From positions 1-38,267 of the forward strand of contig MSHD01000014.1 in NCBI GenBank assembly GCA_001941045.1: 38,267 nt of DNA, written 5' to 3'. Positions 6,583 to 23,201 of the stretch are shown piece after piece. Numbering within the stretch: position 1 is the stretch's first letter; every line of letters begins with the position of its first letter. The notes beneath the pieces were generated by a model. The model was not told the DNA's origin and ran no database searches. It saw nothing but the letters and a program-made list of their open reading frames with translations. A program made the translations under genes and the position numbers. The DNA comes from Lachnospiraceae bacterium Zagget2. Its GTDB lineage: Bacteria; Bacillota; Clostridia; Lachnospirales; Lachnospiraceae.

Positions 6583-6613
6583 AAAAAAAACAGGACAGGC
6601 TCCTCACCTGTCC
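6583..6613 (-). terminator. Rho-independent terminator of spoVT copy A
   Basis: On the minus strand GGACAGG, a 7-base loop and CCTGTCC are followed by TGTTTTTTTT. The same hairpin follows every spoVT-derived copy in the window. Confidence 0.8.
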
Positions 6614-6618
6614 CGCTC

Positions 6619-7139
6619 CTACTGCTCCATCTGCTTCCCCAGAAACACCGCCGCCGTGGCCGCGAGCTTCTGCTCCGTCTCGCTCATCTTGCTTCGTTCG
6701 TCCCGCCCCATGAGGACCACCGCGCCAATCGCGTCCCCCTCGCTGATGATCGGACAGATCGTCTCGGCATAGACGCCCTCAGCCGTTTCCTTCACAAATG
6801 GAATGAATTTTTTATCTCCGGCGGCGGCCTGTCGGCTCTCCCGCTCCGTGATCAGCTTCTCCAGCTCGGAACTGATCCGCTTTCCCTGATATTCCTTCTT
6901 CGCTCCGCCCGCTGCCGCGACGACGCCGTCGCGGTCGGTCACGCAGACCGGTCTGCGCCAGGCACTCCGCGTACTGCTGTGCGAAGACGCCCAGCTCCCC
7001 GATCGGGGAATATTTTTTCAGGATGATCTCGCCCTCGCGGTCGGTAAAGATTTCCAGAGGGTCGCCCTCCCTTTATTCTCAAGGTGCGCCGGATCTCCTT
7101 TGGCACGACGACGCGGCCCAGGTCGTCCGACTGTGTCAA
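6619..7139 (-). pseudogene. Truncated, frameshifted spoVT copy A
   Basis: Near-identical to the intact spoVT at 22653-23201 from DDLGRVVVPKEIRRTLRI to the C-terminal KLAATAAVFLGKQMEQ. The first ~11 residues of the AbrB domain are replaced by KIFVPYLTQS, exactly as in copies C and D. A one-base insertion in the CCCTTTATT run (about 7069-7075) and an ~11-base deletion at about 6950 break the frame, giving two partial frames (AbrB part 6939-7139, GAF part 6619-6942). It cannot make a full protein, though the GAF-like C-terminal half is still open. It lies about 23 bases after the stop of the AAA-ATPase gene. Confidence 0.85.
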
Positions 7140-7161
7140 GTAAGGGACAAAAATTTTTCTT

Positions 7162-8838
7162 TCAACCCAGCTTTTCTCTTAGTACTTCCACCTTGCACTC
7201 ATGCCGTCTGGTTGTATCTTCTTTATCGTAAGCAATTCCTACTGCAAGCACCCGGCCTGTATATTCCGGCTTCTGCCCCAGCTTGCCTTCAAAGCGGAGC
7301 GCATACTGACGATCCCTGATCTGCTGAACTGCTTCTTCCGCCGTATGGTTCACCTTCAGTTCTATAATAATCGCGTCGTCGTCATTCTTAAACGGATAGA
7401 AAATAAAATCCACATATCCTATACCCGCTTTATCCTCCCGCTCGATCCGATAATAATTAATTGCATCCAGATAGACCCAACGAATAATGGAGGCCAGTTC
7501 CGCCTCATTGTTGTACATCAGAAGCGGACTTTCCGTGTTATGAACAAACTGCAGAATCTCCGCCATCGTTTTTGTATCGCCAGCTTTCGTAGCTCTCAAC
7601 ATACGCCCGGATTCTCTTGTGAGTCGGTACACATTTCCCAACGACTCTTCTTTTTGAACCATCTCGGCAAATTTGTCCATCAATTCCTTATTGGGAATCG
7701 AAACATAGCCGTCTTCATAATTCAAAAAACCATAGACAACCATCGCCGAGAAGATCTCATCCCGCGTTTTCAATTCCATCGAAGTCGCGGCATACTCCCG
7801 TACCTTTGCCGGAACCGGAATATCCGCCACCAGCAAGGCAACATCGTCTTTTACCTGATCCACATTCGCGCCGATATAATAAAACAATTCGTCATAAGGG
7901 CCTGAACTCGTCCAGTAACTGCCCAGGTTATTATTAGTCAACGCCAGTACGACAGACCTTGGATTGTAAACCCGCGCTCCTGCTTTTGTATGGTAACCAT
8001 CATACCAGAGACGCAGCCCTTCTCTGCTTACCTTTCTGCAAGCCATTTCCTGCGTAAGATATCTCTGATAAAGCTCGTCAACTTCTTCATCCGTAAATCC
8101 AAAGTATTCAGAAAACTTTTCTTCCGTTATCATGGTGTATTCACAGAACATATTAAGTTCAGAACCGCTCGAATACTTCGAGATCGGGAGGATTCCTGTC
8201 ATATATGCCAGTTCCACATATGCCTTATCTTTCAGAAGATTGCTCAGAAATTTTGTAAAATTATCTTTATCTTCTTCTGTCACAAATTTCTGATGATAAA
8301 TATAGTCCCATTCGTCAAGCACGAAAATAAAACGTTCTCCCCCACAGTATTCGTAAACATTTGTCAAGGCATCCCAGAGCGCATCATCCTTTTCAATTTC
8401 AGCGTCAGGATAAGCCTGCCTGAGATCCGCCATAAGCCTCTTTCTAATCCTTGTAATATACTTTTCATATGAAAGAGGGACGTCCGGCAATTCACTAAAT
8501 GTAATATGAATCACGTTATGCTGATTCAAATGCTTCTTATACCAGCCAAAAGAAGACACTTTCAGCGAATCAAATTCCCTACTGCTGTCCACGCCCCTTC
8601 CAAAATAAGACGCGATCATATTTGCCATAATCGTCTTGCCAAAACGACGTGGCCGTGTAAGGCTGATATATTTGGGATTTGTCTTAATATTCTGTGTCTC
8701 ACCCGCAAAATTCACACACTCCGGATCCACAACCGCCACCAATTCCTCAAGAATCTGTGTTTTATCCACGTAGTAAGGGAGTGTGCACTCATTCTGGAAC
8801 AATCCATAAGCTCCGGTTCCATTTAAATAGAGTCCCAT
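7162..8838 (-). CDS. AAA-ATPase-like protein with C-terminal DUF1703 PD-(D/E)XK domain
   Basis: A complete 558-residue member of the AAA-ATPase_like/DUF1703 family common in gut anaerobes. The Walker A-like segment RPRRFGKT is at 62-69 and the Walker B segment FIFVLDEWD at 170-178. The C-terminal nuclease-like core is at 474-497, with D477, E493 and K495 forming the D...E-x-K triad in GYVDFIFYP and IIIELKVN. These proteins usually occur in many paralogues; a role in nucleic-acid cleavage or defence is suspected but not established. GTGAGG stands before ATG 8838. A promoter-like region lies in the 39-bp repeat upstream, and spoVT copy A with its terminator follows directly downstream. Confidence 0.85.
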   Translation of the reverse strand: MGLYLNGTGAYGLFQNECTLPYYVDKTQILEELVAVVDPECVNFAGETQNIKTNPKYISLTRPRRFGKTIMANMIASYFGRGVDSSREFDSLKVSSFGWYKKHLNQHNVIHITFSELPDVPLSYEKYITRIRKRLMADLRQAYPDAEIEKDDALWDALTNVYEYCGGERFIFVLDEWDYIYHQKFVTEEDKDNFTKFLSNLLKDKAYVELAYMTGILPISKYSSGSELNMFCEYTMITEEKFSEYFGFTDEEVDELYQRYLTQEMACRKVSREGLRLWYDGYHTKAGARVYNPRSVVLALTNNNLGSYWTSSGPYDELFYYIGANVDQVKDDVALLVADIPVPAKVREYAATSMELKTRDEIFSAMVVYGFLNYEDGYVSIPNKELMDKFAEMVQKEESLGNVYRLTRESGRMLRATKAGDTKTMAEILQFVHNTESPLLMYNNEAELASIIRWVYLDAINYYRIEREDKAGIGYVDFIFYPFKNDDDAIIIELKVNHTAEEAVQQIRDRQYALRFEGKLGQKPEYTGRVLAVGIAYDKEDTTRRHECKVEVLREKLG

Positions 8839-8881
8839 TTCTATGCCTCACTTTCTTTTTGGTGAATCCTTCACAATTATT

Positions 8882-8920
8882 AAAACAATTTTACCATGCT
8901 GACAAGTAATTTACAATTTG
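8882..8920. repeat. 39-bp dispersed repeat, copy 2, with a candidate promoter
   Basis: Same sequence as 6513-6550. On the minus strand TTGTCA, 17 bases and TAATAA form a plausible sigma-A promoter whose start would lie upstream of the AAA-ATPase gene. Confidence 0.5.
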
Positions 8921-8981
8921 CTTTTCCTAACTTTCTCAAAGTTTACGAGCAAATCCCATTTCGGGTAGTTTGGGCGGATTC

Positions 8982-9075
8982 AAAAAAACAGGACAGGCTC
9001 CTCACCTGTCCCGCTCCTACTCCATCTACTTCCCCAGAAACACCGCTGCCGTGGCTGCGAGCTTTTGCTCCAAAT
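8982..9075 (-). pseudogene. spoVT copy B: 3' end plus terminator only
   Basis: Contains the hairpin terminator (8982-9011) and about 20 codons matching the spoVT C-terminus, slightly diverged (an AAC codon cluster and CTGCCGTGGCTGCGAGC). At about 9076 it is joined to the tail of an unrelated small gene. The left flank, a GGGTAGTTTGGGCGG stretch, matches the flanks of copies D and E. Confidence 0.8.
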
Positions 9076-9194
9076 ACGGTATCTTCATCTACAATCAGGG
9101 CAAGTACAGGCAACTCTGTAAATATAATCTGTATGGCATGCTTCACTTTTCCCGTCATTCCCGCATGATATAAGTCAGTCAGGCGTTTATCCAT
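9068..9194 (-). pseudogene. Truncated unknown gene beginning MDKRLTDLYHAG
   Basis: About 42 codons, MDKRLTDLYHAGMTGKVKHA then a segment ending LALIVDEDTVFG, before the frame runs into spoVT copy B. The start ATG overlaps the stop of the upstream XRE-like fragment (ATGGATAA), so the two were an operon pair. A diverged copy of its last ~20 codons (PSAIAIIVGEDTAF) precedes spoVT copy C at 12478-12535. I do not recognise the family. Confidence 0.5.
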
Positions 9195-9370
9195 GCAAGC
9201 TCTCCTTATATTTGCGTTTGAAGTCGATCAGATTCATAATTTTCCGCTTGTCAATATCAGACAGCTCAGAAAAAATTCGAGCGAACATCTCTATCTCGGT
9301 CTCTCTGGCAACTTTCCCATACATCAATTCATCCACGCTGACACCATATAATTGGGCATACTTACTACCA
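9191..9370 (-). pseudogene. C-terminal remnant of an XRE-family regulator
   Basis: The minus strand reads YAQLYGVSVDELMYGK, then a charged helix with ARIFSELSDIDKRKIMNLI and KRKYKESLHG before TAA. L-Y-G-V-S-V-D-E-L is the usual end of an XRE helix-turn-helix domain. The DNA-binding helices are missing. On the left its stop overlaps the next start; on the right it is joined to a helicase fragment at about 9371. Confidence 0.6.
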
Positions 9371-9539
9371 CACGGAAAGGATGGTATACGGCAACATAAG
9401 GCTCATGGTAAACCGAGCCTTTCTGTTCCAACATCTTCTGAATCGAGCCCCTGAAGGGCTCGTTGGTCATTGGGAATGTAGTTTCTATATAATCCCCAAT
9501 ACCCTCTTCCAGCTGTTTTGCGAGTATAGATGGCAGCAT
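9371..9539 (-). pseudogene. N-terminal remnant of a defence-type DEAD/DEAH helicase
   Basis: From ATG at 9537-9539 (AAGGGA 10 bases upstream) it reads MLPSILAKQLEEGIGDYIET, then TFPMTNEPFRGSIQKMLEQ and VYHEPYVAVYHPFR, and stops matching at about 9371. This is the characteristic N-terminus of a large DEAD/DEAH (DUF1998-type) helicase family found in defence loci; the helicase motifs themselves are absent. It is fused to an XRE fragment by deletion. Confidence 0.6.
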
Positions 9540-9579
9540 ACGCTTTTTCCCTTTGTATGATTTACTGTGACAGTGGAAT

Positions 9580-9740
9580 TGATACACCAACCAATGCACC
9601 AACTGAATTCTCAACGCACCAACTGATACACCAACTAGATTTTCAATACTTCAATTGATACATCATCTGAATTCCTAAAAACTTCAATTCAAACACTCAA
9701 ATGCTAATTCATCCACTCAAGTGCCAATTCATCCACTGTT
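9580..9740. repeat. Degenerate short tandem repeats
   Basis: Units resembling TGATACACCAAC occur at 9580, 9592, 9612 and 9624. Farther right two 20-base units, ATGCTAATTCATCCACTCAA (9701-9720) and GTGCCAATTCATCCACTGTT (9721-9740), lie in tandem. No long frame runs through them. The stretch 9615-9788 holds nothing else I can identify. Confidence 0.5.
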
Positions 9741-9788
9741 TCATCTACTCATTTACTTATAAATCACTTTATTAAGTAGATAAACTGC

Positions 9789-10064
9789 CTACTTTGTATC
9801 GCATTGCTCAAAAACTTTTTTCATGTACACGCAAGGAGCAGCATCGCCGATTCTGATGTTGATTTCCTGCTGCGGAAAAACATAATTTGCAATCTGATTG
9901 TACTGAGATTTCGGGATGCCATTCTTTTTTAAATAATTTGGGGGGAACAAATGATGAATATCCCCACGACTTTCCAGCATCGCCTCGACATCAATTTGCT
10001 CTGACAAAAATCCTTTATCATGAGCTTTTACCTGCGCTGCAAGACTAATATTTGCATCTTTCAT
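9789..10064 (-). pseudogene. C-terminal remnant of a DUF262/DUF1524 (GmrSD-type) endonuclease
   Basis: 91 codons reading IDVEAMLESRGDIHHLFPPN, then YLKKNGIPKSQYNQIANYVF and a tail with INIRIGDAAP. D-I-H-H-(I/L)-F-P-x-N-Y-L is the HNH-type motif of DUF1524, the nuclease half of GmrSD-like type IV restriction proteins that cut modified DNA. The DUF262 domain and most of the protein are missing. The same frame extends upstream through an in-frame TAG (about 10094) into a segment that does not look like this family, so the break is a fusion as well as a truncation. Confidence 0.6.
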
Positions 10065-10323
10065 TCCATCCCAAGAAGAAGCATCTTCCTAAGGTTTATA
10101 TTCTCTGTACTGTGCTTCGTATAAATGCCAATAATACCCATCTGATAAGCACGGTATAAAATCATATCGAAATGATTGATAAGAATCTATTCTTTCGCAT
10201 TCATATTCATTTTTTCATTAGCTCCTTCTTGCACAAGTTCTTTATCATCGCCCATCATTATCCATGTTCCTATAAACACTATTTCAAATATTTTCACAAT
10301 TAGTCAAACAAACTCTAAAACCA
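10065..10323. other. Intergenic stretch with two short open frames
   Basis: The minus strand holds a ~40-codon frame (YDFIPCLSDGYYWHLYEAQY and a few residues more, then TAG) and, overlapping it, a ~35-codon frame containing FIGTWIMMGDDKELVQEGAN that ends at a TAG near 10190. Both look like tails of lost genes. No RNA gene, terminator or promoter is convincing. Confidence 0.25.
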
Positions 10324-11775: not shown

Positions 11776-11882
11776 AAACAACCTCTCAAATATAAAAACA
11801 GTTTCACCATTTTCTTTTATATTTTTCATTATAGTCCAATTTACGAACAAAATCAATTATTAGTAGATGAGAGGATTTGCGC

Positions 11883-11911
11883 AAAAAACAGGACAGGCTT
11901 CTCACCTGTCC
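11883..11911 (-). terminator. Rho-independent terminator of spoVT copy C
   Basis: GGACAGG/CCTGTCC hairpin (minus strand) followed by six T, the same as after intact spoVT. Confidence 0.8.
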
Positions 11912-11916
11912 CGCTT

Positions 11917-12447
11917 CTACTGCTCCATCTGCTTCCCCAGAAACACCGCTGCCGTGGCCGCGAGCTTCTGCTCCGTCTCGCTCATCTTGCTTCGCTCGTC
12001 CCGTCCCGCGAGGACCACCGCGCCGATCGCGTCCCCCTCGCTGATGATCGGGCAGATCGTCTCGGCAAAGACGCCCTCCGTCGCCTCCTTCACAAATGGA
12101 ATGAATTTTTTATCCCCGGCGGCGGCCTGCCGGCTCTCCCGCTCCTGGATCAGCTTTTCCAGCTCAGAGCTGATCCTCTTCCCCTGATATTCCTTCTTCG
12201 CGCCGCCCGCCGCCGCGACGACGCCGTCGCGGTCGGTCACGCAGACCATGTGTCCTGTCGTCTGCGCCAGGCACTCCGCGTACTGCTGCGCGAAGACGCC
12301 CAGCTCCCCGATCGGGGAATATTTTTTCAGGATGATCTCGCCCTCGCGGTCGGTAAAAATTTCCAGAGGGTCACCCTCCCTTATTCTCAAGGTACGCCGG
12401 ATTTCCTTCGGCACGACGACACGGCCAAGGTCGTCCGATTGTGTCAA
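11917..12447 (-). pseudogene. 5'-truncated spoVT copy C, frame open
   Basis: An open frame of about 176 codons, nearly identical to intact SpoVT from DDLGRVVVPKEIRRTLRIRE through the GAF domain to LGKQMEQ, but starting KIFVPYLTQS in place of MKATGIVRRI. The first beta strand of the AbrB swapped-hairpin DNA-binding domain is therefore missing. Its only available starts are TTG-like and no ribosome binding site is clear. Upstream, in frame but behind a TGA, lies the tail FTDPSAIAIIVGEDTAF of the unknown MDKRL-type gene. It may express a GAF-only protein, or simply be a remnant. Confidence 0.75.
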
Positions 12448-12477
12448 ATAAGGGACAAATATTTTTTTACTTTTTCA

Positions 12478-13324: not shown

Positions 13325-13690
13325 GTCTCCTGACTGCCAAAAGATATGATAGAATCTGGCAGGACTCCTGATGGAGCCGGGACGGGACAGACAACCCGTT
13401 CCGACTCCATCAGGAGAATTTTACCCAGGCGCTCGACATCACAGCCACATACGAGATCTTATCAGCGCTGCAGTCTATGATGGCAGAAGCGAGGATATGG
13501 CGTTTAGCGTTGACGGGAAACGTAATATTCACGCTATCTCCAAAATGTCGTTCGAAAAATCTGCCAAAGAAATCGAACTTGGCGCCAAAATTGCCATGAA
13601 CCGCTTCGACGCCATGGTTTCCGATTTTGAAAAACACTCTTATCTGCAGGCAAAGAACTTAAAGAGCAGGGAATTGCGCGACAATAGGTT
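13325..13690 (+). pseudogene. Degenerate hipA fragment
   Basis: Aligns to intact hipA at 17540-18147 in the same orientation. Landmarks are ATATGATAGAATCTGGCAGG, a CTCCATCAGGAG stretch, DLISAAVYDGRSEDMAFSVD, a GKRNIHAISKMSFEKSAKEI segment and then AKIAMNRFDAMVSDFEK. Internal losses remove the segment with the catalytic N-T-D-N-H motif, and the last ~16 codons are shortened. An inverted duplication of part of the gene is present at 13367-13414. The copy ends just past the 3' end of ohyA. Confidence 0.75.
13367..13414. repeat. 20-bp inverted repeat inside the hipA remnant
   Basis: Left arm 13367-13386 and right arm 13395-13414 pair at 18 of 20 positions around an 8-base loop. The ends are CCTGATGGAG and CTCCATCAGG. 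Intact hipA has only the right-arm sequence, so the left arm is an inverted duplication. Confidence 0.75.
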
Positions 13691-13699: not shown

Positions 13700-15502
13700 T
13701 TACATTCCTTCCGGAATCAGTCCACTCTCTTTTAAAAGGAGTTCCACATCGGTTCCCCTGACCTTCTTCATGAGAATACGAAGTGCTTCGTGTTCCCAGA
13801 AGCTGAGCTTCACCTCCGTAATGGGTTTCTTGTCGATGCCATAGTAGGCTGCCCGCAACAGTTCCCTGATATCATACTTACTTCCCCAGACCTCCGGCAC
13901 GGCGCGATCTACATTCAGCAGAGTATAGACAGATTCCATGCCGGTTCTCATAGAATACTCTGTGGTGAAGATCGTGTCTCTGGGAGTCTCGGCAAACTGA
14001 CCGATGAAAGCGAAGTTTACAGCCCCATCAGGGACAACTTTCGGACGGTCAGACTCCTTTCTGGGCTGGAAAAAGGAGTTGATAAAGGGCATAAAGCAGG
14101 TCGTGGTGTTGCACTCATTCCCGGCAAGATAAGCGATTCGATCCTCGGGGACGCCGATGTGGTACAGCCATTCTCTGCAAATCTCCTCACCGGTACAATC
14201 GCGCATTGCCTTTTTGACATAATTGCCCTCTTTATTTGTAGTCAGTCCATACACCCATACCAGAATGCTTCCCTTCTCCTGGGACTTAAACTGCGGCTGA
14301 CGGTTAATCGTCCAGGACAGATACCAGTTGTCTGTGCTGTCCTTCACCGTCACGATTCCTCCTGTTGCCACCTTGCCGGAACGGGGATCACGCTGGCAGA
14401 TATTCATGATATAACGGATGATTTCTTCATTGGAAGTAGCAACCGTAGCGCTCATCCAGTTTGTTGCTTCAAAATCATCACAGTAATGATCCGGATTGCC
14501 GAATTCCCCGTGGGTGGCCTGAGCGGCAATATTTTTCCACAGATCCCAGCTTTCACCGGTAAGATTGCGTACATTACTCAAATCGGGTGCATGTGTCTGA
14601 TCACCATAACAGGAAGTGTCCGTGCAGCAACCATTGGTAATAAATACCAGATCATCTTCAGTCAAATCAATAATCTGATACTGACCTTCCTTCATATAAA
14701 CAATCCGCTTTGCAACCTGCTTATCGCCCATGCTTTCGATCAGCACATTCTTGACATCCATACCAAATTCCACTTGAACGCCATGACTCACCAGATACTT
14801 GACCAACGGAAGAATCATGCTCTCATACTGGTTATACTTCGTAAAGCGGAGGGCGCTGAAATCCGGCAGGCCATCGATGTGATGGCAAAAGCGGCAGAGA
14901 TAGCGCTTCATTTCCAGTGCACTGGACCAACGCTGAAACGCAAACATGGTCTGCCAGTACAACCAGAAGTTGGTAGACCAGAAGGATTCAGGCAACACCT
15001 CAGAGATCTTCTTATCCTCCAGCGCCTTTTCTGGTGTGATAAAGAGCTTTGTCAATGCCATTGCCGATTCTTTGTCCAAAGCGAACTTTTTATCTGTGTG
15101 GGCATCCTGCCCACATTTCTCCGTGGCGCGGCAGAGAGAGTAGTTGGGATCGTGCTTGTTCAGCCAATAATATTCGTCCAGCACGGAAACGCCAGGCGTT
15201 TCGATAGAGGAAACATCCCGGAACACATCCCACATGATCTCGAAATGATTGTCCATTTCACGACCACCACGCATATAGAAGCCTTTAGACACATCCTTAC
15301 GTCCATCACAGCTTCCACCGGCCAGATCCAGCTTTTCAAAAATGTGAACGTGCTCGCCCTTCATCTGACCATCCCGCACCAGATAAAAGGCAGCTGTCAG
15401 ACCAGCCAAACCGGCCCCAATGATATAGGCGGATTTTCTGTCTACGCCTTCCGGTTTTTCCGGGTGAGCAAACGCTTCATAAGTTCCTGCACCGTAATAC
15501 AT
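13700..15502 (-). CDS. ohyA: Oleate hydratase
   Basis: A 600-residue FAD-dependent fatty-acid double-bond hydratase (myosin-cross-reactive antigen family), at the usual length. It adds water across the cis-9 double bond of oleic or linoleic acid to give 10-hydroxy acids, a detoxification step in gut bacteria. The FAD-binding glycine motif IIGAGLAGLTAAFYL is at about 27-41, then HIFEKLDLAGGSCDG, and the RGGREMDNHFE loop with the catalytic glutamate at position 82. AGGAGGT precedes the ATG. It follows a TetR-type gene on the same strand after a 121-base gap containing a hairpin. Broken and intact hipA genes lie on either side of the pair. Confidence 0.95.
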   Translation of the reverse strand: MYYGAGTYEAFAHPEKPEGVDRKSAYIIGAGLAGLTAAFYLVRDGQMKGEHVHIFEKLDLAGGSCDGRKDVSKGFYMRGGREMDNHFEIMWDVFRDVSSIETPGVSVLDEYYWLNKHDPNYSLCRATEKCGQDAHTDKKFALDKESAMALTKLFITPEKALEDKKISEVLPESFWSTNFWLYWQTMFAFQRWSSALEMKRYLCRFCHHIDGLPDFSALRFTKYNQYESMILPLVKYLVSHGVQVEFGMDVKNVLIESMGDKQVAKRIVYMKEGQYQIIDLTEDDLVFITNGCCTDTSCYGDQTHAPDLSNVRNLTGESWDLWKNIAAQATHGEFGNPDHYCDDFEATNWMSATVATSNEEIIRYIMNICQRDPRSGKVATGGIVTVKDSTDNWYLSWTINRQPQFKSQEKGSILVWVYGLTTNKEGNYVKKAMRDCTGEEICREWLYHIGVPEDRIAYLAGNECNTTTCFMPFINSFFQPRKESDRPKVVPDGAVNFAFIGQFAETPRDTIFTTEYSMRTGMESVYTLLNVDRAVPEVWGSKYDIRELLRAAYYGIDKKPITEVKLSFWEHEALRILMKKVRGTDVELLLKESGLIPEGM

Positions 15503-15623: not shown

Positions 15624-16202
15624 TCATTTTGTTTCATTTGATGTATGATCCATTCGGAAACGCTCCAGCGACTGCCGGAATACACCCTGGATTTCAATTG
15701 CCAGCCTGGCGACTATCGTCGACGGTTCCTCCCGCATATCATCCCTGACCCAATCCAGCATCAATCCAATAAATATGTAGGAATAAATGTTTGCTATAAA
15801 TGCCATGTCTTCTTCCCTGACCGACATGCCTCTGGACTCTTCCTCCAAAACCCCCATAAGGAGCCTGTTTACCAACGGTTTCAGGTAGAGTTCTACCTGT
15901 TCCCGGTGAACACAATGGTAGACATTCAGAATAAATGGCTTATTTTCCTTAACTGCCTGAAAAATCTGCAGGAAACCTTCCTGCCACGTATCATAGGTTT
16001 TCTTTTGCTGAAGAGCCTTCTGAGCATCTTCCAGGCAAGCCCATTCCACCAGATCATAGATGTCCTTGAAATGATAATAAAAGGTCATCCGGTTGATACC
16101 GCAGTCCTCTGTTATATCGTTGATCGTGATTTTATTCAATGGCTTTTTGAGCAACAGGTTTTTCAGGCTTTGTTCCAATGCCCGTTTGGTGATCTGCGAC
16201 AT
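15624..16202 (-). CDS. TetR/AcrR-family transcriptional regulator
   Basis: 192 residues. The N-terminal helix-turn-helix is at about 8-50: ALEQSLKNLLLKKPLNKITI, DITEDCGINRMTFYYHFKDI, then YDLVEWACLED. The ligand-binding part is divergent helical sequence of the type found in DhaS-like TetR regulators. It lies directly upstream of ohyA on the same strand and is the likely fatty-acid-responsive repressor of it (inference from position). AGAGGGA precedes the ATG. Confidence 0.85.
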   Translation of the reverse strand: MSQITKRALEQSLKNLLLKKPLNKITINDITEDCGINRMTFYYHFKDIYDLVEWACLEDAQKALQQKKTYDTWQEGFLQIFQAVKENKPFILNVYHCVHREQVELYLKPLVNRLLMGVLEEESRGMSVREEDMAFIANIYSYIFIGLMLDWVRDDMREEPSTIVARLAIEIQGVFRQSLERFRMDHTSNETK

Positions 16203-16246: not shown

Positions 16247-16457
16247 GCCAGTCTTTGCTCCTCACATATTGTTCATTACAAAATCGCTATTTTTGATCGC
16301 CCATTTTTCACAAAATCGCATATTTTGTATGACCATTCTGCATTTCATTGACATCTATGCACTTAGGTGCCTTCTAATTTGTTCATGCCTGTTTCCGATC
16401 CTGAATCATCATAATCATTATAAACTAACTTTTGTTCCCATTCAATTCAGAAATGAC
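16247..16457. repeat. Dispersed paired-hairpin repeat, copy 2
   Basis: Same element as at 930-1075 and 21022-21222. Here the second hairpin is perfect: ACAAAAT (16310-16316), CGCAT, ATTTTGT (16322-16328). The first unit is CAAAATCGCTATTTTTG. The element continues through TCATAATCATTATA to CCCATTCAATTCAGAAATGAC, a right end shared with copy 3. It sits directly upstream of the hipBA promoter. Confidence 0.75.
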
Positions 16458-16637: not shown

Positions 16638-16853
16638 ATGAAAATCGCAGATGCAAAATCCTTCGGAGAAGCCATACGCAAAAGAAGGAAAGAACTTCAC
16701 TATACGCAGGTCTACCTCTCCGCATGCACCGGACTGAGCATTACTTTCATTTCGGATCTTGAGCGGGGAAAGCCCAGTATACAGCTGGAAAAGGCGATCC
16801 AGCTGGTAAACATTCTGGGGATGGACCTTTTGATCGAGAAGCGAGGTGAGTAG
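16638..16853 (+). CDS. hipB: HipB-type XRE antitoxin
   Basis: 71 residues. ATG 16638 is chosen because AAGGAG lies 8 bases before it; an upstream in-frame start at 16599 has none. It is almost entirely one XRE helix-turn-helix: FGEAIRKRRKELHYTQVYLS, then CTGLSITFISDLERGKPSIQ and a final helix ending LGMDLLIEKRGE. In the hipBA module the antitoxin neutralises the HipA kinase and represses the operon. hipA follows with one base between the stop and the ATG. Confidence 0.9.
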   Translation: MKIADAKSFGEAIRKRRKELHYTQVYLSACTGLSITFISDLERGKPSIQLEKAIQLVNILGMDLLIEKRGE

Positions 16854-16854
16854 G

Positions 16855-18147
16855 ATGCGGAAATTATCAGTGTGGATGGAAATCAAAGGAAAGGCTGTTT
16901 ATGTCGGTCAGATTACCGGACACGACAGCAACAACGCCTGTTTCTCCTATGCGGAGGACTACCGATCCCGTTCGGACAGCAGGCCGGTATCCCTAAGTCT
17001 TCCGTTGGAAGAGAGGACATTTTCGCCGAGCCGGACCGAGAATTATTTTGAGGGTCTCTTACCGGAGGGCTTTACCAGAAAGTGCGTTGCGAGGCGACTC
17101 CATGCCGATGAGGGCGATTATCTCTCCATCCTTTCTGCCCTGGGGAAAGAATGCCTCGGTGCGGTGAAAATACTGGAAGAGGGCGTGGCCGAAGATGCGC
17201 CGGAATACCGTCCCCTGTCTCCACAGGAGGTCGAAGATCTGGCGCGGGAAGGCGCGGTAGAGTCCGCATCGATCGTCGCCAAATCACACTTATCCCTGAC
17301 CGGCGCTTCCGGAAAAGTCGGCCTCTATTATGATGAGCAAAAAGAGCAATGGTATCTTCCCATTGGCGACGCACCCAGTACGCACATTGTCAAGCAGAGC
17401 CATGTGAGGCTGAGTCGGATTGTAACAAACGAACAGCTCTGCCTCCAGACAGCGAAACGCCTCGGCATTGTTGTGCCGGACAGTTTTATTCTGAATCTGT
17501 CCGACTCTGGAAGAAATCCCGGTGAAGAAGATGTTCTCCTGGCGACAAGAAGATATGACCGGATCTGGCAGGATTCCTGCAGGAATCTGAACGGGCTGCC
17601 TGTCCCGCTCCGGCTCCATCAGGAGGATTTTGCCCAGGCACTCGGCATCGCGGCCGCGCGCAAATATGAGCGAGGTGATGAAGAATATATGGCGAGAATG
17701 TTCCGCCTGCTGCAGCTGTATTCCGCGAATCCTCTGGAGGACCAGCTCCGGCTCTGGAATATCTGTATCTTCAACTACCTCATCGGCAATACGGATAACC
17801 ACATCAAGAATCTGTCTCTATTGTACAGCGCTGATCTGAAAAGTATCCGGCTTGCCCCCGCATACGATCTTGTCAGCACCGTGGTCTATGACGGCGGAAA
17901 CGAGGATATGGCTTTCAGCGTTGGCGGGGAACATAATATTCACGCCATCTCAAGAAAATCATTTGAAAAAGCTGCCAAAGAAATCGGACTTGGCGCCAAA
18001 ATGGCCATGAACCGCTTTGACGCCATGGTCTTCGGCTTTGAAAAAGCGCTCATTTCTGCAGGCGAAGAGTTAAAAGAGCAGGGATTTGCAGAGGCCAGCC
18101 ATATGAGTGAATCCATTCTGAACAAGGGTGGCATTGCACGGCAATAA
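16855..18147 (+). CDS. hipA: HipA-type serine/threonine kinase toxin
   Basis: About 430 residues, full length. ATG 16855 follows the hipB stop by one base, with AGGTGAG before it; an in-frame GTG at 16846 overlaps hipB. Motifs in order: the flexible Gly/Ser loop LTGASGKVGL (~148), the ATP-lysine segment IVKQSH (~178), the catalytic loop NTDNHIKN (~312) and the metal-binding AYDLVST (~336). HipA phosphorylates a translation factor or tRNA synthetase, giving growth arrest and persistence; the target here cannot be told. A shortened relic of the same gene lies at 13325-13690. Confidence 0.9.
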   Translation: MRKLSVWMEIKGKAVYVGQITGHDSNNACFSYAEDYRSRSDSRPVSLSLPLEERTFSPSRTENYFEGLLPEGFTRKCVARRLHADEGDYLSILSALGKECLGAVKILEEGVAEDAPEYRPLSPQEVEDLAREGAVESASIVAKSHLSLTGASGKVGLYYDEQKEQWYLPIGDAPSTHIVKQSHVRLSRIVTNEQLCLQTAKRLGIVVPDSFILNLSDSGRNPGEEDVLLATRRYDRIWQDSCRNLNGLPVPLRLHQEDFAQALGIAAARKYERGDEEYMARMFRLLQLYSANPLEDQLRLWNICIFNYLIGNTDNHIKNLSLLYSADLKSIRLAPAYDLVSTVVYDGGNEDMAFSVGGEHNIHAISRKSFEKAAKEIGLGAKMAMNRFDAMVFGFEKALISAGEELKEQGFAEASHMSESILNKGGIARQ

Positions 18148-18359: not shown

Positions 18360-18668
18360 TCAGTCTTCTTCCATTCTTCTGCGATTTAAATACTCGTTAT
18401 ATACCGCATTGCTGTGCTCCAACTGCTTTTTCTGCATGATCCGCTTCCTGTCGTCGAGGATTGCAAGCATCTCATCCACGATCTCCCCTTCCGGCAAGCT
18501 GCTATAATGGGAAAGATAATAAATCATTCTCTGCGCGGTGAAATCCGTATTCAGATTCTGCGTGACCAGGTCGCAGAACCGCTCCTGATAGCCCCTGTCC
18601 AGCATTATCTGATAAAGTTCTTTACTTACCTCCGATTTTGCTTTCATATACCGTAGCCACTCCCACAT
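18360..18668 (-). CDS. Hypothetical protein
   Basis: 102 residues, rich in charged helices, with no membrane segment and no motif I recognise: MKAKSEVSKELYQIMLDRGY, then a segment with NTDFTAQRMIYYLSHY. The start is uncertain: ATG 18668 has a GAGGAT about 20 bases upstream, while ATG 18647 has GGGAG 13 bases upstream. It is the penultimate gene of a same-strand run from 20984 to 18150. Confidence 0.6.
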   Translation of the reverse strand: MWEWLRYMKAKSEVSKELYQIMLDRGYQERFCDLVTQNLNTDFTAQRMIYYLSHYSSLPEGEIVDEMLAILDDRKRIMQKKQLEHSNAVYNEYLNRRRMEED

Positions 18669-18686
18669 TTTTACCGGGTACAGATT

Positions 18687-19529
18687 TTATCCTCTGTACC
18701 TGATGATTTCTCTTCTGTACGCAGATAGAATCTGCCTGATTTCCCGGTTCCTGTCCGGGTTCCGATAATGTTCCGTCTCCTTCTCCATCCGTATCCGAAA
18801 TGCGATTTCCGCTTTTACCTGGCGCAGATAACTTCCCTTGTCTCGTTGTATTCTGACGACCGTCATTTTCGCCTGTATCAGATGCGCGCGCATAAGAGGA
18901 AACAGACAATAATACAGCTCGTCCTCCGCGAAGGAAATATGCCCGAGCCCATTCCCCTGCGAATCTGCGACCATAAGCTTCCAGTCATGAAGCGCCGCCG
19001 GATATACGGCATCGCCTTTTTGAAGAGAGAGTATTCGCTTCATCCTCTCTCTGTCCTGCTTTTCCCCGATATAAGCACGGAAACAGTAAATCTTCCGTCC
19101 CGCCTCATCGGTCGTTTCCGTCTCTGCAATTTTCTCAAGGCAGTATAGCGGGTCCACGAACTGCAGCGCCAGGCAATGGAACAATTGCTTCTGGAAAGGA
19201 ATACGCAAAGCATCTGTTCCGCCATAAATACCGCATTCGCTTTCCACTTCATCCAGCAAATCCTTCCCGGCATGAAGGAGGCTTCGTAAAAACAGCGGGA
19301 ATTCTTCCTCATCCGGGTTCCACATGTATTTCCCATGGGCCAGGGTCTGATACATTCCGCCGGTATCAAGATCCATATGGTATGGGGCGTAGATATTTCT
19401 GGGGACATATGCGGCGTCGTTGACCGGAGCTTTCCACAAAAGCACCTTTTCTTCTCTTCCCCTGAAGAAGTCTTTTCTTTTGAGCAGCGTGTAAGCGGCA
19501 TTGATTCTTTGCGCCTGTTCCTCATCCAT
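18687..19529 (-). CDS. Hypothetical protein
   Basis: 280 residues, soluble, with no recognised domain. It contains VPRNIYAPYHMDLDTGGMYQ and LQFVDPLYCLEKIAETETTD in the middle, and a basic C-terminal helix. Neighbours on the same strand are a small antitoxin-like protein upstream and a 102-residue protein downstream. No catalytic motif can be named. Confidence 0.65.
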   Translation of the reverse strand: MDEEQAQRINAAYTLLKRKDFFRGREEKVLLWKAPVNDAAYVPRNIYAPYHMDLDTGGMYQTLAHGKYMWNPDEEEFPLFLRSLLHAGKDLLDEVESECGIYGGTDALRIPFQKQLFHCLALQFVDPLYCLEKIAETETTDEAGRKIYCFRAYIGEKQDRERMKRILSLQKGDAVYPAALHDWKLMVADSQGNGLGHISFAEDELYYCLFPLMRAHLIQAKMTVVRIQRDKGSYLRQVKAEIAFRIRMEKETEHYRNPDRNREIRQILSAYRREIIRYRG

Positions 19530-19554
19530 TTCAGTCCTTCTTTATTTCTCCGCA

Positions 19555-19791
19555 TCAAACCTCGCTTAAAATTTTCTGCCTCGCCTCATCGGTCGTCAAC
19601 TTTCCCGATCTGATTTCCTTCAGCATATCCAAATCGTCTTGCGTCAGAGACATTCCCTCCATTTTCAATGTGGCGTCTATCTCCCGAATTGCTTCCGCTG
19701 GAGTATATATAACCCTCCTGCCCTTTACCCCAAAAGGAATTCCACCCCGCGTGATTAATTGTTTCAGCGAATTTTTGTACCTTTCAGTCAT
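19555..19791 (-). CDS. Small protein with antitoxin-VbhA-like C-terminus
   Basis: 78 residues: MTERYKNSLKQLITRGGIPF, a segment with YTPAEAIREIDATLKMEGM, and then LDMLKEIRSGKLTTDEARQK. The (S/L)G-x-(L/I)-T-x-(D/E)-E-A-x-x-x-I-L ending resembles the VbhA/Fic antitoxin helix, but no Fic protein is next to it, so the similarity may be superficial. Its ATG overlaps the GNAT stop (ATGA) and a GGTGGG ribosome binding site is present. Confidence 0.6.
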   Translation of the reverse strand: MTERYKNSLKQLITRGGIPFGVKGRRVIYTPAEAIREIDATLKMEGMSLTQDDLDMLKEIRSGKLTTDEARQKILSEV

Positions 19792-20393
19792 TTTCCCACC
19801 TGTTTTTCGTGTTCAACTGCGTAAGGCTTACACAACCGGCCATAGACCGGGCGATAGATTTCCTGATACATCTCCTCCACAGCGCAATGCAGCTGTTCCA
19901 TCGAATGATCAGGAATCATTTGGCTGATATACAGAATATTATAATCCACACCAAACAGCAGGCATTTTGAGTTTATCAGCAAGGCGCCATTTGCGAGATA
20001 AAAACTGATCCGTCTCTTCCGGATCTGTACTTCCTCGTCTGTCTTTGCCGAATCAGGGCTCTCCGCCTCGATGAAAACGCCGCATTTCACCGACGCCACG
20101 TTTTTCAGGCGCTGCAGGAACTCACTGCCGACTCCATGGCCGCGCAGTCCAGGAACAACTGCAAAATAATCCAGAAGCGCATACATCCCGTTCTCTGTAA
20201 GAATGTAACAGGCATACGCCAGCAGGCTGCCATTATCATAATAGCCATAACAGGCATATTTTCCCGCCTTCGTCATACGTTTCATAGAAGCGAATGGACG
20301 GCGCTCGCTGCGGGGGAAATCCTCCCGTACATGGTCCCTGTAGATCCGTTTCAGCTTATCCAGTTCCAGCTTCTCAACTATTTCTCCAACCAT
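19788..20393 (-). CDS. GNAT-family N-acetyltransferase
   Basis: 201 residues. The acetyl-CoA-binding motif A is visible as YFAVVPGLRGHGVGSEFLQR (R/Q-x-x-G-x-G/A type) at about 76-95. It is preceded by the beta strands YACYGYYDNGSLLAYACYIL. The acceptor substrate is unknown. It overlaps the downstream 78-residue gene by four bases and follows a membrane-protein gene by 12 bases, so all three are probably co-transcribed. Confidence 0.85.
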   Translation of the reverse strand: MVGEIVEKLELDKLKRIYRDHVREDFPRSERRPFASMKRMTKAGKYACYGYYDNGSLLAYACYILTENGMYALLDYFAVVPGLRGHGVGSEFLQRLKNVASVKCGVFIEAESPDSAKTDEEVQIRKRRISFYLANGALLINSKCLLFGVDYNILYISQMIPDHSMEQLHCAVEEMYQEIYRPVYGRLCKPYAVEHEKQVGK

Positions 20394-20405
20394 GTCAGAA
20401 TCTCA

Positions 20406-20984
20406 TCATCGCCTAACGGCCACGCTGACCGTGACCGCCACCATCATCACCGCTACAAGAATCAGCGGGATCATGCCATCTACATATCCTTTCACACTGT
20501 CCAGACCGTAATACAGCAGATAACAAATCATACTGACAATAGCGGCAAGCAATGTGATGACAAGAAGCAGGATCACTGCTGACTTTGTAAAATGCCCCTG
20601 CGCGAACAGGGCGTTCAGCTCCAGAAACATCAAGACAGTCCAGCCGACTATAAGGAACAGTTCCGTCGTCACCTGCCGCTTTAATACAATCCCAGTCAAT
20701 GCCAACAGCAGAATATACGCAATCACGCCGCCGACCAGCACCGCGTCGCGCGGATACAGCAGGGCTTTACCATCTACCGCGCCGCTGCTCTGCACAATCC
20801 TAATCACCGCAGCCACGCCCAAGATAAACGCCGGGATCAGAAGCCATCCGCTTCGAATTCCCTTTACTGCCCCCTCCGGTTTAAATGCAATCAGCCACCA
20901 TGCAAGATAAAAGGCACAGCATATGACCATCAGAATATTTCCCATCAGCATCTGCCTGGTTGGCTCATCAAAATTTGAAAACAT
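20406..20984 (-). CDS. Multi-pass membrane protein, function unknown
   Basis: 192 residues with about six hydrophobic helices: MGNILMVICCAFYLAWWLIA, GWLLIPAFILGVAAVIRIV, VGGVIAYILLLALTGIVL, LFLIVGWTVLMFLEL, AVILLLVITLLAAIVSMICY and a C-terminal PLILVAVMMVAVTVSVAV. Short positively charged ends suit the inner-membrane topology. GGGAG precedes ATG. No family recognised. Confidence 0.7.
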   Translation of the reverse strand: MFSNFDEPTRQMLMGNILMVICCAFYLAWWLIAFKPEGAVKGIRSGWLLIPAFILGVAAVIRIVQSSGAVDGKALLYPRDAVLVGGVIAYILLLALTGIVLKRQVTTELFLIVGWTVLMFLELNALFAQGHFTKSAVILLLVITLLAAIVSMICYLLYYGLDSVKGYVDGMIPLILVAVMMVAVTVSVAVRR

Positions 20985-21021
20985 CGGCTTCTCCCATCTG
21001 CGTCATCAACGGTCCATACCC

Positions 21022-21222
21022 CTGCCAATCTTTGCGCCTCACATATTGTTCATCGCAAAATCGCTATTTTGGATCGCCCATTTTTTCACAGAATCGCTTA
21101 TTTTGTATGACCATTCTGCATTTCATTGATTTCTATACACCCAGATGTCTTTTAATTTACTCCTGAATCATCATAATCATTATATCCTAACTTTCCTGCC
21201 CATTCAATTCAGAAGTGACACA
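21022..21222. repeat. Dispersed paired-hairpin repeat, copy 3
   Basis: Closely matches copies 1 and 2: GCCAATCTTTG, CCTCACATATTGTTCAT, two AATCGC hairpin units, GACCATTCTGCATTTCATTG, then TCATAATCATTATA and CCCATTCAATTCAGAAGTGA. On its left, TGCGTCATCAACGG also occurs inside the broken AlbA_2 gene (about 258-271), a possible trace of a shared past neighbour. No gene is seen in 20985-21325 apart from this repeat and the next one. Confidence 0.75.
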
Positions 21223-21246
21223 TTCTCAAAATTTGCAGGCTAATCC

Positions 21247-21290
21247 CACTTTGGGTAGTTTGGGTGGGACTTTGGGTAGTTTGGGTGGGC
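21247..21290. repeat. 21-bp tandem duplication beside spoVT copy D
   Basis: ACTTTGGGTAGTTTGGGTGGG occurs twice in tandem. The same unit occurs once beside intact spoVT (22595-22616) and in diverged form beside copy B (8957-8978). Confidence 0.8.
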
Positions 21291-21320
21291 AAAAAAACAG
21301 GACAGGCTCCTCACCTGTCC
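21291..21320 (-). terminator. Rho-independent terminator of spoVT copy D
   Basis: GGACAGG/CCTGTCC hairpin followed on the minus strand by seven T after TG. Confidence 0.8.
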
Positions 21321-21325
21321 CGCTC

Positions 21326-21787
21326 CTACTGCTCCATCTGCTTCCCCAGAAACACCGCCGCCGTGGCCGCGAGCTTCTGCTCCGTCTCGCTCATCTTGCT
21401 TCGCTCGTCCCGCCCCGCGAGGACCACCGCGCCAATCGCGTCCCCCTCGCTGATGATCGGGCAGATCGTCTCAGCGTAGACGCCTTCGGTCGTTTCCTTC
21501 ACAAATGGAATAAACTTTTTATCCGCGACGACGCCGTCGCGGTCGGTCACGCAGACCATGTGTCCTGTCGTCTGCGCCAGGCACTCCGCGTACTGCTGCG
21601 CGAAGGCGCCCAGCTCCCCGATCGGGGAATATTTTTTCAGGATAATCTCGCCCTCACGGTCGGTAAAGATTTCCAGAGGGTCACCCTCCCTTATTCTCAA
21701 GGTGCGCCGGATCTCCTTCGGCACGACGACGCGGCCAAGGTCGTCCGATTGTGTCAAGTAAGGGACAAAAATTTTTCCCAATATCAT
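21326..21787 (-). pseudogene. spoVT copy D, truncated, in-frame deletion, coupled to toxN
   Basis: An open frame of 153 codons. It begins MILGKIFVPYLTQSDDLGRV and then follows SpoVT. About 33 residues of the GAF domain (from after DRDGVVA to DKKFIPFVK) are missing in frame. Its ATG overlaps the toxN stop as ATGA, so it could be translated by coupling with toxN. It lacks the first AbrB strand and part of the GAF ligand domain, so normal SpoVT function is unlikely. I class it as a pseudogene, but expression is possible. Confidence 0.75.
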
Positions 21788-22311
21788 TGACTATTTTCCC
21801 ATTTTTGAAGCACTGTTTCCAGTTTTGCAAAATCACAACAACGTCTCTTTAAAAGGCCGCTGGCCTTACCGGATTCAATCATTTTATAAAGCTTGTTTGC
21901 TTTCTTTGTAATTTCATCCTGATGACCCTGACACCAGCTCAACTGCTTTGCAGCCATTTTTTTATAACGTCTCGACTGCGGGCTGTCCTTCCCTGTAACC
22001 TTGAGGTCCACCGGCGAAATGCAGCTTTCATCAACAGGAATCATATTATTAAAATTCAGCACTCCCAACAGTTTATCTTCGACAATAATTTTAGTGAAAT
22101 CGACATCATTTTTCATCGACTCGTGTTTATGTTTAGGTGAGCTTAAAGGCACGCAATATTCTTGCATATCGCACACAATTATAATTCCAACAAATGGTCT
22201 CTTTTCTTTTTCTATCTGCGGAGATACCGACATCACATTATCATCGACTTTTGACAGATTTCTAATATATTTCATATCAATCAGATACAAGTTCAAACGC
22301 CTTTGCTTCAT
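21784..22311 (-). CDS. toxN: Type III toxin-antitoxin endoribonuclease ToxN/AbiQ
   Basis: 175 residues from ATG 22311, chosen because AAAGGA lies 6 bases upstream and the family starts here (KQRRLNLYLIDMKYIRNLSK); an upstream in-frame start at 22404 would run through the attenuator. ToxN/AbiQ landmarks in order: PFVGIIIVCDMQEYCVPLSS, PKHKHESMKNDVDFTKI, GVLNFNNMIPV and a C-terminal helix with RRYKKMAAKQLSWCQ. The toxin is a sequence-specific ribonuclease that cuts its own antitoxin precursor and, when released during phage infection, cellular and phage RNA. Directly upstream lie a terminator and three 34-base repeats, the classic antitoxin RNA layout. Confidence 0.92.
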   Translation of the reverse strand: MKQRRLNLYLIDMKYIRNLSKVDDNVMSVSPQIEKEKRPFVGIIIVCDMQEYCVPLSSPKHKHESMKNDVDFTKIIVEDKLLGVLNFNNMIPVDESCISPVDLKVTGKDSPQSRRYKKMAAKQLSWCQGHQDEITKKANKLYKMIESGKASGLLKRRCCDFAKLETVLQKWENSQ

Positions 22312-22325
22312 ATGATTCCTTTCGT

Positions 22326-22357
22326 AAAAAGAGACTGCGCTTTTTACACGCAGCCTC
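22326..22357 (-). terminator. Attenuating terminator between toxI and toxN
   Basis: On the minus strand GAGGCTGCG, a ~9-base loop, CGCAGTCTC (with a G-U pair) and five T. In type III systems a leaky terminator here sets the antitoxin-to-toxin ratio. Confidence 0.85.
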
Positions 22358-22362
22358 AAATC

Positions 22363-22464
22363 GTTTCCACTTACGGTAGGACTCACCGCTCTTATAGGTT
22401 CCACTCACAGTAGGACTCACTGCTCTTATAGGTTCCACTCACAGTAGGACTCACTGCTTTTTAC
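22363..22464 (-). ncRNA. toxI: ToxI-type RNA antitoxin, three 34-nt repeats
   Basis: Three tandem units of 34 bases at 22363-22396, 22397-22430 and 22431-22464. The core in RNA sense is GAGTCCTACTGTGAGTGGAA. The second and third units are identical over most of their length and the first has a few changes. Repeat number and length, position 50-150 bases upstream of toxN, promoter before and hairpin after all fit a type III antitoxin, whose repeats are cut apart by ToxN and hold it in an inactive assembly. The mature unit boundaries cannot be fixed from sequence. Confidence 0.85.
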
Positions 22465-22509
22465 AGGAGCATTGCCCCTATACGATAAGACAAATCTTAT
22501 CTCTGATTA

Positions 22510-22538
22510 TTTTATACAGGTTTTCAGATGCTATGTCA
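22510..22538 (-). promoter_or_regulatory. Promoter of the toxI-toxN operon
   Basis: On the minus strand TTGACA (22533-22538), 17 bases, TATAAA (22510-22515). The start point would be near 22503. An ATAAGA/TCTTAT palindrome at 22485-22500 lies in the early transcript. Confidence 0.75.
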
Positions 22539-22616
22539 AGAACAATTTCCCTGTCAAAACTTTCTCAAAGTCTCAAAATTTACGGGCTAATCCCACTTTG
22601 GGTAGTTTGGGTGGGC

Positions 22617-22647
22617 AAAAAAAACAGGACAGGCTCCTCACCTGTCC
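22617..22647 (-). terminator. Rho-independent terminator of spoVT
   Basis: GGACAGG (22641-22647 on the complementary side), 7-base loop, CCTGTCC and then TG and a run of eight T on the minus strand. This is the parent of the copies elsewhere in the window. Confidence 0.85.
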
Positions 22648-22652
22648 CGCTC

Positions 22653-23201
22653 CTACTGCTCCATCTGCTTCCCCAGAAACACCGCCGCCGTGGCCGCGAG
22701 CTTCTGCTCCGTCTCGCTCATCTTGCTTCGCTCGTCCCGCCCCGCGAGGACCACCGCGCCGATCGCGTCCCCCTCGCTGATGATCGGGCAGATCGTCTCG
22801 GCATAGACGCCCTCTGCCGCTTCCTTCACAAATGGAATGAATTTTTTATCCCCGGCGGCGGCCTGCCGGCTCTCCCGCTCCTGGATCAACTTTTCCAGCT
22901 CAGAGCTGATCCGCTTCCCCTGATATTCCTTCCTCGCGCCGCCCGCCGCCGCGACGACGCCGTCGCGGTCGGTCACGCAGACCATGTGTCCTGTCGTCTG
23001 CGCCAGGCACTCCGCGTACTGCTGCGCGAAGACGCCCAGCTCCCCGATCGGGGAATATTTTTTCAGGATAATCTCGCCCTCACGGTCGGTAAAGATTTCC
23101 AGAGGGTCGCCTTCCCTTATTCTCAAGGTACGCCGGATTTCTTTCGGCACAACGACGCGGCCAAGGTCGTCAATCCGACGCACAATTCCCGTTGCTTTCA
23201 T
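22653..23201 (-). CDS. spoVT: Stage V sporulation protein T, intact copy
   Basis: 182 residues from ATG 23201 (GGAGGA 8 bases upstream; the longer frame to 23339 lacks a site). The AbrB-type swapped-hairpin DNA-binding domain is at 1-50: MKATGIVRRIDDLGRVVVPK, then a segment ending GDPLEIFTDREGEIILKKYS. A linker follows and then a GAF domain at ~60-180 (VCVTDRDGVVAAAGG; ETICPIISEGDAIGAVVL). SpoVT regulates forespore (sigma-G) genes and germination. This is the only copy with a complete N-terminus. It lies 65 bases downstream of cca on the same strand and marks the edge between conserved and accessory sequence. Confidence 0.92.
   Translation of the reverse strand: MKATGIVRRIDDLGRVVVPKEIRRTLRIREGDPLEIFTDREGEIILKKYSPIGELGVFAQQYAECLAQTTGHMVCVTDRDGVVAAAGGARKEYQGKRISSELEKLIQERESRQAAAGDKKFIPFVKEAAEGVYAETICPIISEGDAIGAVVLAGRDERSKMSETEQKLAATAAVFLGKQMEQ

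Follow-up and report, generated by a model that had tools for sequence, protein, structure and literature searches.

A spoVT repeat array in a Lachnospiraceae genome and its probable origin at an insertion site of large serine recombinase elements

Contig MSHD01000014.1 of Lachnospiraceae bacterium Zagget2 (contig C14 of the source genome, G000) was analysed whole, and its 38,267 nucleotides are called the window here. It contains an intact copy of the sporulation regulator gene spoVT together with four truncated copies, A to D, and accessory genes lie between them. Copies A, C and D each stand behind a common leader. In the terms used for integrative elements, this leader corresponds to a right end (P arm, attR), the corresponding left arm is P', and the truncated 3' part of the gene is spoVT'. 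The features of the array are as follows.

22653..23201, minus strand: intact spoVT with a product of 182 aa; attachment gene (attB), with SpoVT_C and MazE/AbrB Pfam domains
23166..23171, minus strand: crossover point at spoVT codons 11-12 (GAC GAC), shared core GA, from junction alignments
22617..22652, minus strand: spoVT terminator region, repeated at 21290-21325, 11881-11916, 8981-9013 and 6583-6618 (repeat search)
21746..21776, minus strand: leader (P arm) of copy D, TTGACA-N6 before the core
21326..21745, minus strand: copy D, 3' part of spoVT without codons about 85-116 (about 32), frame open
12436..12466, minus strand: leader (P arm) of copy C
11917..12435, minus strand: copy C, 3' part of spoVT, frame open
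8981..9071, minus strand: copy B, the last 58 nt of spoVT (9014-9071) and the terminator only, fused to DNA that resembles the upstream flank of leader C
7128..7158, minus strand: leader (P arm) of copy A
6619..7127, minus strand: copy A, 3' part of spoVT, frameshifted

Every repeat-family copy in the array is on the minus strand. A 300-nt direct-repeat family begins at 6585, 11883, 21292 and 22619 (81-97% identity, with the copy at 11883 as reference), a terminator family of 41 nt has five copies (6583, 8981, 11881, 21290 and 22617; 90-100%), and a 58-nt family from the 3' end of spoVT also has five, with 90-91% identity to copy B as the reference. A first-pass annotation of this DNA had described spoVT and its four copies as lying in one orientation with a common terminator, and the repeat search bears this out. 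The copies it listed are real, but their spoVT-homologous extents had to be corrected to 6619-7127 (A), 9014-9071 (B), 11917-12435 (C) and 21326-21745 (D). The leader TTTGTCCCTTAYTTGACACARTCGGACGACCT occurs three times, at 7120-7151, 12428-12459 and 21738-21769, each time exactly in a search that allowed three mismatches, and it was matched in none of 100 shuffles of the window. Together with these matches, the alignment of copies A, C and D upholds the proposal that they are cut at one codon behind one leader. A single breakpoint and a single leader in three copies rule out an origin as independent pseudogenes.

The truncated copies begin to match spoVT at the crossover point, and the match of a native spoVT from a related genome (G006) ends at 23169 on the other side of it. 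The intact protein is 99% identical to SpoVT of two further relatives, G007 and G009. Because the 64 nt upstream of copy B are 80% like the DNA that lies 9 nt upstream of leader C, we read copy B as a deletion derivative of a leader-C-type junction; it looks like the product of a deletion that took the leader and most of the spoVT copy, and hence like the remnant of a fourth junction. An in-frame TTG in the leader was considered as a start codon for spoVT' and dropped, since no ribosome-binding site is seen and many leaders contain an in-frame stop.

The same junction recurs widely in other genomes. A scan of genome contigs for TTGACA, 4-10 free bases and then spoVT codons from 11 on returned 112 loci, in records assigned to Oscillospiraceae, Lachnospiraceae, Clostridia and other Bacillota. 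The gap between TTGACA and the core is 6 nt in 111 of them and 5 nt in one, and the junctions in the window are the same as at these loci, so that the hosts share a site-specific insertion point. Two of the loci belong to the clade of the window (L085 in G006 and L176 in G007). A 46-nt leader of one and the same sequence stands beside 13 spoVT' sequences whose pairwise ungapped identity over 300 nt is 32-81%, which points to one mobile end in many hosts. In 90 of the 112 loci the reading frame of spoVT' stays open over at least 155 codons; five more are cut by contig ends, and 17 are short. One locus (L081) is labelled as an uncultured Alistipes, a non-spore-former, probably through a binning error.

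Large serine recombinases (LSRs) are found beside these junctions. Among the 46 loci with at least 1.8 kb of upstream DNA (the remaining 66 were excluded from this count), 40 have LSR matches upstream and six have none (L105, L112, L121, L132, L176 and L184). Open reading frames (ORFs) of all three LSR classes are present in 16 of the 18 loci with at least 5.2 kb upstream, and in the end-most class 28 of 44 ORFs end at a distance of 130-185 bp from the junction. In a tree of one class (rows of at least 450 aa), the 43 proteins from spoVT sites fall on one side of a branch with support of 99/92, against a background of five rows from three distinct genes and with long branches flagged. Viral contigs gave no match to a strict leader-type pattern and four to the general junction pattern, each of the four with three LSR-like ORFs upstream. 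A bare split-promoter pattern had at least 120 matches in the viral contigs; these were taken for ordinary promoters and dropped.

The other half of the site was sought with spoVT codons 1-11 in 24 genomes preselected for a right junction. These codons were matched in 23 genomes (G420 gave no match), and a reversed-pattern control gave none in any. Codon 11 runs into a left arm in 18 of the 24, carrying TATAAT in 17 cases and TATTAT in one. Three genomes have an intact spoVT only (G415, G421 and G429), two a short spoVT-like gene only (G425 and G426), three both a left arm and an intact spoVT (G417, G427 and G432), and one a left arm and a short gene (G430). When the right and left arms of one genome are joined, TTGACA and the -10 box are 17 nt apart in 18 of 18 pairs; left arms were picked by their -10 motif with no spacing imposed, and some of the paired right arms join a short spoVT-like gene. 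Codon 11 is GAG in the left arms of G412, G416 and G417, and the shared core is therefore GA.

Both halves of spoVT can be found on a single contig, 62.3 kb apart in Mordavella massiliensis An420c (G413), 66.9 kb apart in Flavonifractor An112 (G412) and 25.6 kb apart in G418. Seven of 12 genomes (G412, G413, G418, G419, G420, G422 and G423) show only a truncated spoVT, so the gene is disrupted in those assemblies. Of these three elements, those of G413 and G418 were scanned. The G413 element, of which 41 of 52 listed ORFs were scanned, encodes a relaxase, T4SS-DNA_transf, TrbL, PrgI, RepA_N, BrxL and others among the matches listed (25 of 66 families). The ten ORFs scanned in the G418 element include a relaxase, type I restriction, an IstB-like ATPase and TnpV, with SLFN_AlbA_2 beside the left end. 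In the G413 element, repA, parA and parB stand about 1 kb from the left end, on its inner side, and are oriented inward; if the joined ends of a circular form rebuild a promoter, it would point at replication and partition genes.

Within the genus sample (17 genomes), the surroundings of spoVT vary among the close relatives of the window. Ten of the 11 members outside the close clade have a single spoVT with 76-79% protein identity; a protein search among the genus genomes found no spoVT match in G010, and G011 has an additional paralogue at 32%. Within the close clade (G005 to G009) the DNA around spoVT differs. On contig C34 of G007 the order is an SLFN gene, a spoVT copy, the toxin-antitoxin genes toxIN, a second copy and then DNA seen upstream of copy C in the window. 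The toxIN genes are 97% identical between G000 and G007 and have other neighbours in each, the window pair lying between copy D and the intact spoVT. Matches of toxIN length occur in two of the 17 genomes, and a third genome, G005, has a match of 57 nt at E 5e-4. On contig C70 of G007, a GNAT gene lies about 0.5 kb past the intact spoVT. In G009, spoVT and 86 bp of window-type flank are followed by a block of about 10.3 kb that starts with BrxA, BrxB and BrxC of a bacteriophage exclusion (BREX) system, and then by an SLFN orthologue. Contig C146 of G006 has the 3' end of spoVT followed by relatives of BrxA and BrxB that are 95-97% identical to those of G009. In G008, spoVT is followed directly by SLFN, and the gene upstream differs from the CCA gene of the clade; this spoVT is probably frameshifted, because it was matched in two frames. 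Where the window has the CCA tRNA nucleotidyltransferase, contig C73 of G008 (L048, 38-4621) encodes a 1527-aa SpaA-domain protein upstream of spoVT. The differences between neighbours indicate that cargo varies at spoVT boundaries, and the fixed gene order that the first-pass annotation had named as grounds for giving up its proposal is not what the related genomes have. The contigs of G005, G006 and G007 end at spoVT repeats, which limits the ordering of units.

The clade also contains a left junction. The native spoVT of G006 breaks off precisely at the end of codon 11, where foreign DNA begins, the arm carrying TACGAT at the -10 position; as read from the sequence, the cut gene adjoins a homologue of the CCA gene of the window. 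On contig C93 of the same genome, a leader of the window type adjoins a short spoVT-like piece and lies about 160 bp away from three LSRs in a row. The left end in G006 resembles an inverted leader, and a transposon with terminal inverted repeats was at one time considered; it was replaced by the LSR attachment-site reading after LSRs were found beside the junction.

Intact spoVT genes next to junctions occur outside the clade as well. Falcatimonas sp. MSJ-15 (G415) has an intact spoVT followed by BrxA, BrxB, BrxC, PglX, PglZ, BrxL and SpbK, and then by a leader and spoVT'. Between its two copies of spoVT there are 5 differences in 504 nt, and the likeness runs from the core to 3 nt past the stop codon. 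In G432 an intact spoVT lies within a 19-kb element, between a left end and an attR, together with the remnant of an LSR and a gene with a Fic domain. An intact spoVT, an attR copy and cargo are thus combined in three lineages (the window, G415 and G432), in G432 in another way. The intact gene is accompanied by several units in the window and by one in G415, whereas full elements split spoVT in other genomes.

Comparison of these genomes establishes a fixed crossover point with LSRs beside it, both half-sites, split genes and cargo differences among relatives. They are probably best explained by LSR insertion that left attR scars at spoVT, followed by homologous exchange between spoVT repeats. 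Codon 11/12 of spoVT, with the core GA, would be the attB of integrative elements that as a rule carry three LSRs. Insertion would join codons 1-11 to the left end of the element (P', TATAAT) and the right end (P, TTGACA-N6) to codon 12 onward. Copies A, C and D would then be right junctions and copy B the remnant of one, their LSR parts having been lost. Since an intact spoVT is kept in the window, the array is at present a set of direct repeats, each about 500 nt long, with cargo enclosed between them, and repeats of this length would let RecA exchange units of the form spoVT 3' part, terminator, cargo and P arm. Such units are most likely inserted, removed and exchanged by homologous recombination between the repeats, both within a strain and among related ones. 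A unit inserted in this way leaves spoVT intact, as in the window. We infer that the window leaders derive from LSR elements, with the LSRs since lost, that the units moved by homologous recombination, and that the intact spoVT was so kept or regained. The earlier proposal that modules arrive with a truncated spoVT 3' end and recombine at spoVT agrees with the shared breakpoint, the location and the cargo variation. Recombination between spoVT repeats accounts well for later shuffling, yet it leaves the breakpoint unexplained, and this part of the proposal gives way to an LSR joining point and a leader that has the form of an LSR element right end.

Several results weigh against insertion followed by exchange. 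No LSR match was found in the window contig with three LSRs as queries (tblastn, E<=1e-3), and in the whole G000 genome the matches of one LSR query (E<=1e-60) were all to proteins of 33% identity. A search of the window for a left arm gave none, and no excised circle or reads were seen. The leader was found in two of the 17 genus genomes (G000 and G007) and in one of 397 family genomes, that of the window itself, and the window leaders have at best 62-67% identity over 52 nt to leaders outside the clade. On contig C130 of G007 (L042, 2346-2378) the leader runs into unrelated DNA that precedes a 161-aa ORF, possibly TIGR02452-like, with no spoVT'. In at least four genomes (G417, G424, G427 and G430) the gene joined to the arms may be a short spoVT-like gene. 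Finally, the clade spoVT copies are 92-99% identical and their tree does not resolve, so the direction and age of exchange cannot be read from them.

The small number of genomes with this leader, and the near identity of its three window copies, would suit a single chance fusion of leader and spoVT' that was later copied by ordinary duplication, its likeness to LSR ends being secondary. We consider this very unlikely given that junctions of this geometry are found at 112 loci, most of which have LSRs where the upstream DNA is long enough, and that G006, in the clade of the window, has the matching left side. A further possibility is that the units which restore spoVT are themselves LSR cassettes, with an attP composed of the P arm and a spoVT 3' copy; integration in trans would rebuild spoVT and leave attB reusable, as in the accretion of staphylococcal cassette chromosomes (SCC). 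The extent of the duplication in Falcatimonas, from the core to just past the stop codon, agrees with this model, and at other loci P adjoins a short stretch that resembles spoVT and has a conserved tail. However, the window has no LSR match, the short stretches also exist as complete small genes and so may be targets instead of cassette ends, and homologous recombination over 500 nt yields an identical product. Moreover, with attL equal to attB there would be no excision. This model is therefore unlikely, if less so than a chance fusion.

The elements could also resemble skin, with programmed excision during sporulation restoring spoVT and the window scars as leftovers. The long open spoVT' frames are compatible with this idea, and LSR elements that split sporulation genes are known, such as gin in gerE (PMC5595907). 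An open frame is no proof of use, however. SpoVT acts in the forespore, where an excision would be inherited, and we regard this explanation as quite unlikely, between the two preceding ones. A wider scheme, in which spoVT would be a cassette-chromosome hub of Clostridia, is possible but speculative, and we give it more credit than any of these three. LSR triplets would attack codon 11 and carry a split promoter that is complete only in the circle; spoVT-restoring cassettes, rescue copies inside an element and mini-spoVT decoys would be the response of hosts and elements; and LSR-free defence cassettes (toxIN, or BREX with SpbK) would now move as P-spoVT' units through recombination at spoVT.

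The small genes in this scheme, mini-spoVT (57-58 aa), consist of spoVT codons 1-34 and a conserved tail, roughly TLxxWxxFCxxMLxLAKRxGW. They were seen at L384, L387 and L392 (gene at 1501, in spoVT orientation) and at L085, L090 and L257. Leaders are joined to mini-spoVT genes as well, in L387 to one that is followed by a Fic gene. Mini-spoVT is possibly a decoy or a second attachment site. In G417 (L252, 7602-8423) an attR with mini-spoVT is followed after about 0.8 kb by an intact spoVT, and a left end lies about 30 kb away on the same contig.

The first-pass annotation knew of no described element with this design, which is too strong. Closest in kind are integrative and conjugative elements (ICEs) with serine integrase triplets (PMC4701971) and the SCC and ECC cassette chromosomes (PMC6222049). 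Streptococcal triplet ICEs disrupt mutT, traG and hsdM; like the spoVT elements they have three co-oriented LSRs near one end that cluster by position, a disrupted target gene and very short repeats (PMC4701971), and the scanned G413 element has conjugation genes as they do. Unlike them, the present elements target spoVT in Clostridia, and the window is an LSR-free array with its target gene intact. SCC and ECC at rlmH share LSRs, a single conserved chromosomal gene, variable cargo, attachment-site remnants and mobilisation that is also by homologous recombination, but their site is in the 3' region of the gene with repeats of about 50 nt (PMC6222049), whereas the spoVT site lies close to the 5' end of its gene, which is split by full elements, and the repeats are about 500 nt. 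The gin element, beside which skin in sigK is named, likewise has three serine recombinases and lies inside a sporulation gene. Excision timed to sporulation is shown for gin and not for spoVT elements, and the part of that source available describes no array of target-gene 3' ends (PMC5595907). Tn4451 with TnpX builds a promoter across the joined ends of its circular form (Lyras and Rood 2000, by the title cited in PMC13023037), as the spoVT elements would, and resembles them in its 2-bp core and GA target (PMC5704250); it differs in having a single recombinase and numerous target sites.

The parent kind, triplet-LSR elements, is therefore already known. We would call new the use of spoVT as a site and how widely it is used, a split promoter with a constant spacing of 17 nt, and an array of cargo bounded by repeats in which spoVT stays intact. 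As an integration site, spoVT was not met in the literature searched, where the papers that came up were judged by titles and abstract openings and most subscription papers and preprints were out of reach; PMC10083194 does not mention spoVT or AbrB. The analysis names an integration hotspot of more than 100 loci inside a sporulation regulator, gives exact attachment sites for a family of serine recombinases, and provides a sequence marker for accessory and defence genes beside spoVT. It also allows tests of the persistence and shuffling of defence genes once the recombinase is lost, and of what becomes of sporulation in species where as much as 67 kb of foreign DNA splits spoVT.

The genes between and beyond the copies in the window include the following.

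5057..6451, minus strand: SLFN_AlbA_2/HATPase_c_4 gene, beyond copy A (Pfam)
7162..8838, minus strand: AAA-ATPase/PDDEXK_9 gene, ending beside leader A (PF09820, PF08011)
13700..15502, minus strand: oleate hydratase (MCRA) gene (Pfam)
15624-16202: TetR gene (Pfam)
16846..18147, plus strand: hipA (PF07804, PF13657)
21784..22404, minus strand: toxN ORF (type III toxin), directly beside leader D, whose true start may be internal (PF13958, E 3.9e-48, residues 37-202)
22355..22456, minus strand: three 34-nt repeats, probable toxI antitoxin RNA (repeat search)

Pfam thus confirms the AAA-ATPase/PDDEXK_9, ToxN, HipA, oleate hydratase and TetR assignments of the first reading. The 368-aa product called 'PUA-like/TM' has no Pfam match at 1e-3 and a weak PADLOC match to PDC-S02 (E 3.3e-9). 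The single ORF scanned in the stretch described as helicase and regulator fragments (9789-10064) has no Pfam match, and a relaxase or conjugation module was not seen among the 20 window ORFs scanned. A ToxN domain with tandem repeats upstream, the hallmarks of type III toxin-antitoxin toxIN loci, is present in the window; the 34-nt repeats have no Rfam ToxI match at the gathering threshold. Orthologues of the SLFN gene adjoin a spoVT copy in G007 and G008 and lie beyond BREX in G009. Schlafen/AlbA_2 ATPase-like genes recur beside spoVT junctions across hosts, at L254 (5067-6539), at L397 (4488-5981, called from sequence alone) and in the window (5057-6451). Direct repeats of about 200 bp that are not derived from spoVT (16247-16457 and 21024-21219, 85-92%) flank a block with hipBA and GNAT. 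A hipA fragment at 13395-13677 is 78-85% identical to parts of 17604-18089, and DNA related to this fragment also lies past the second spoVT copy on contig C34 of G007.

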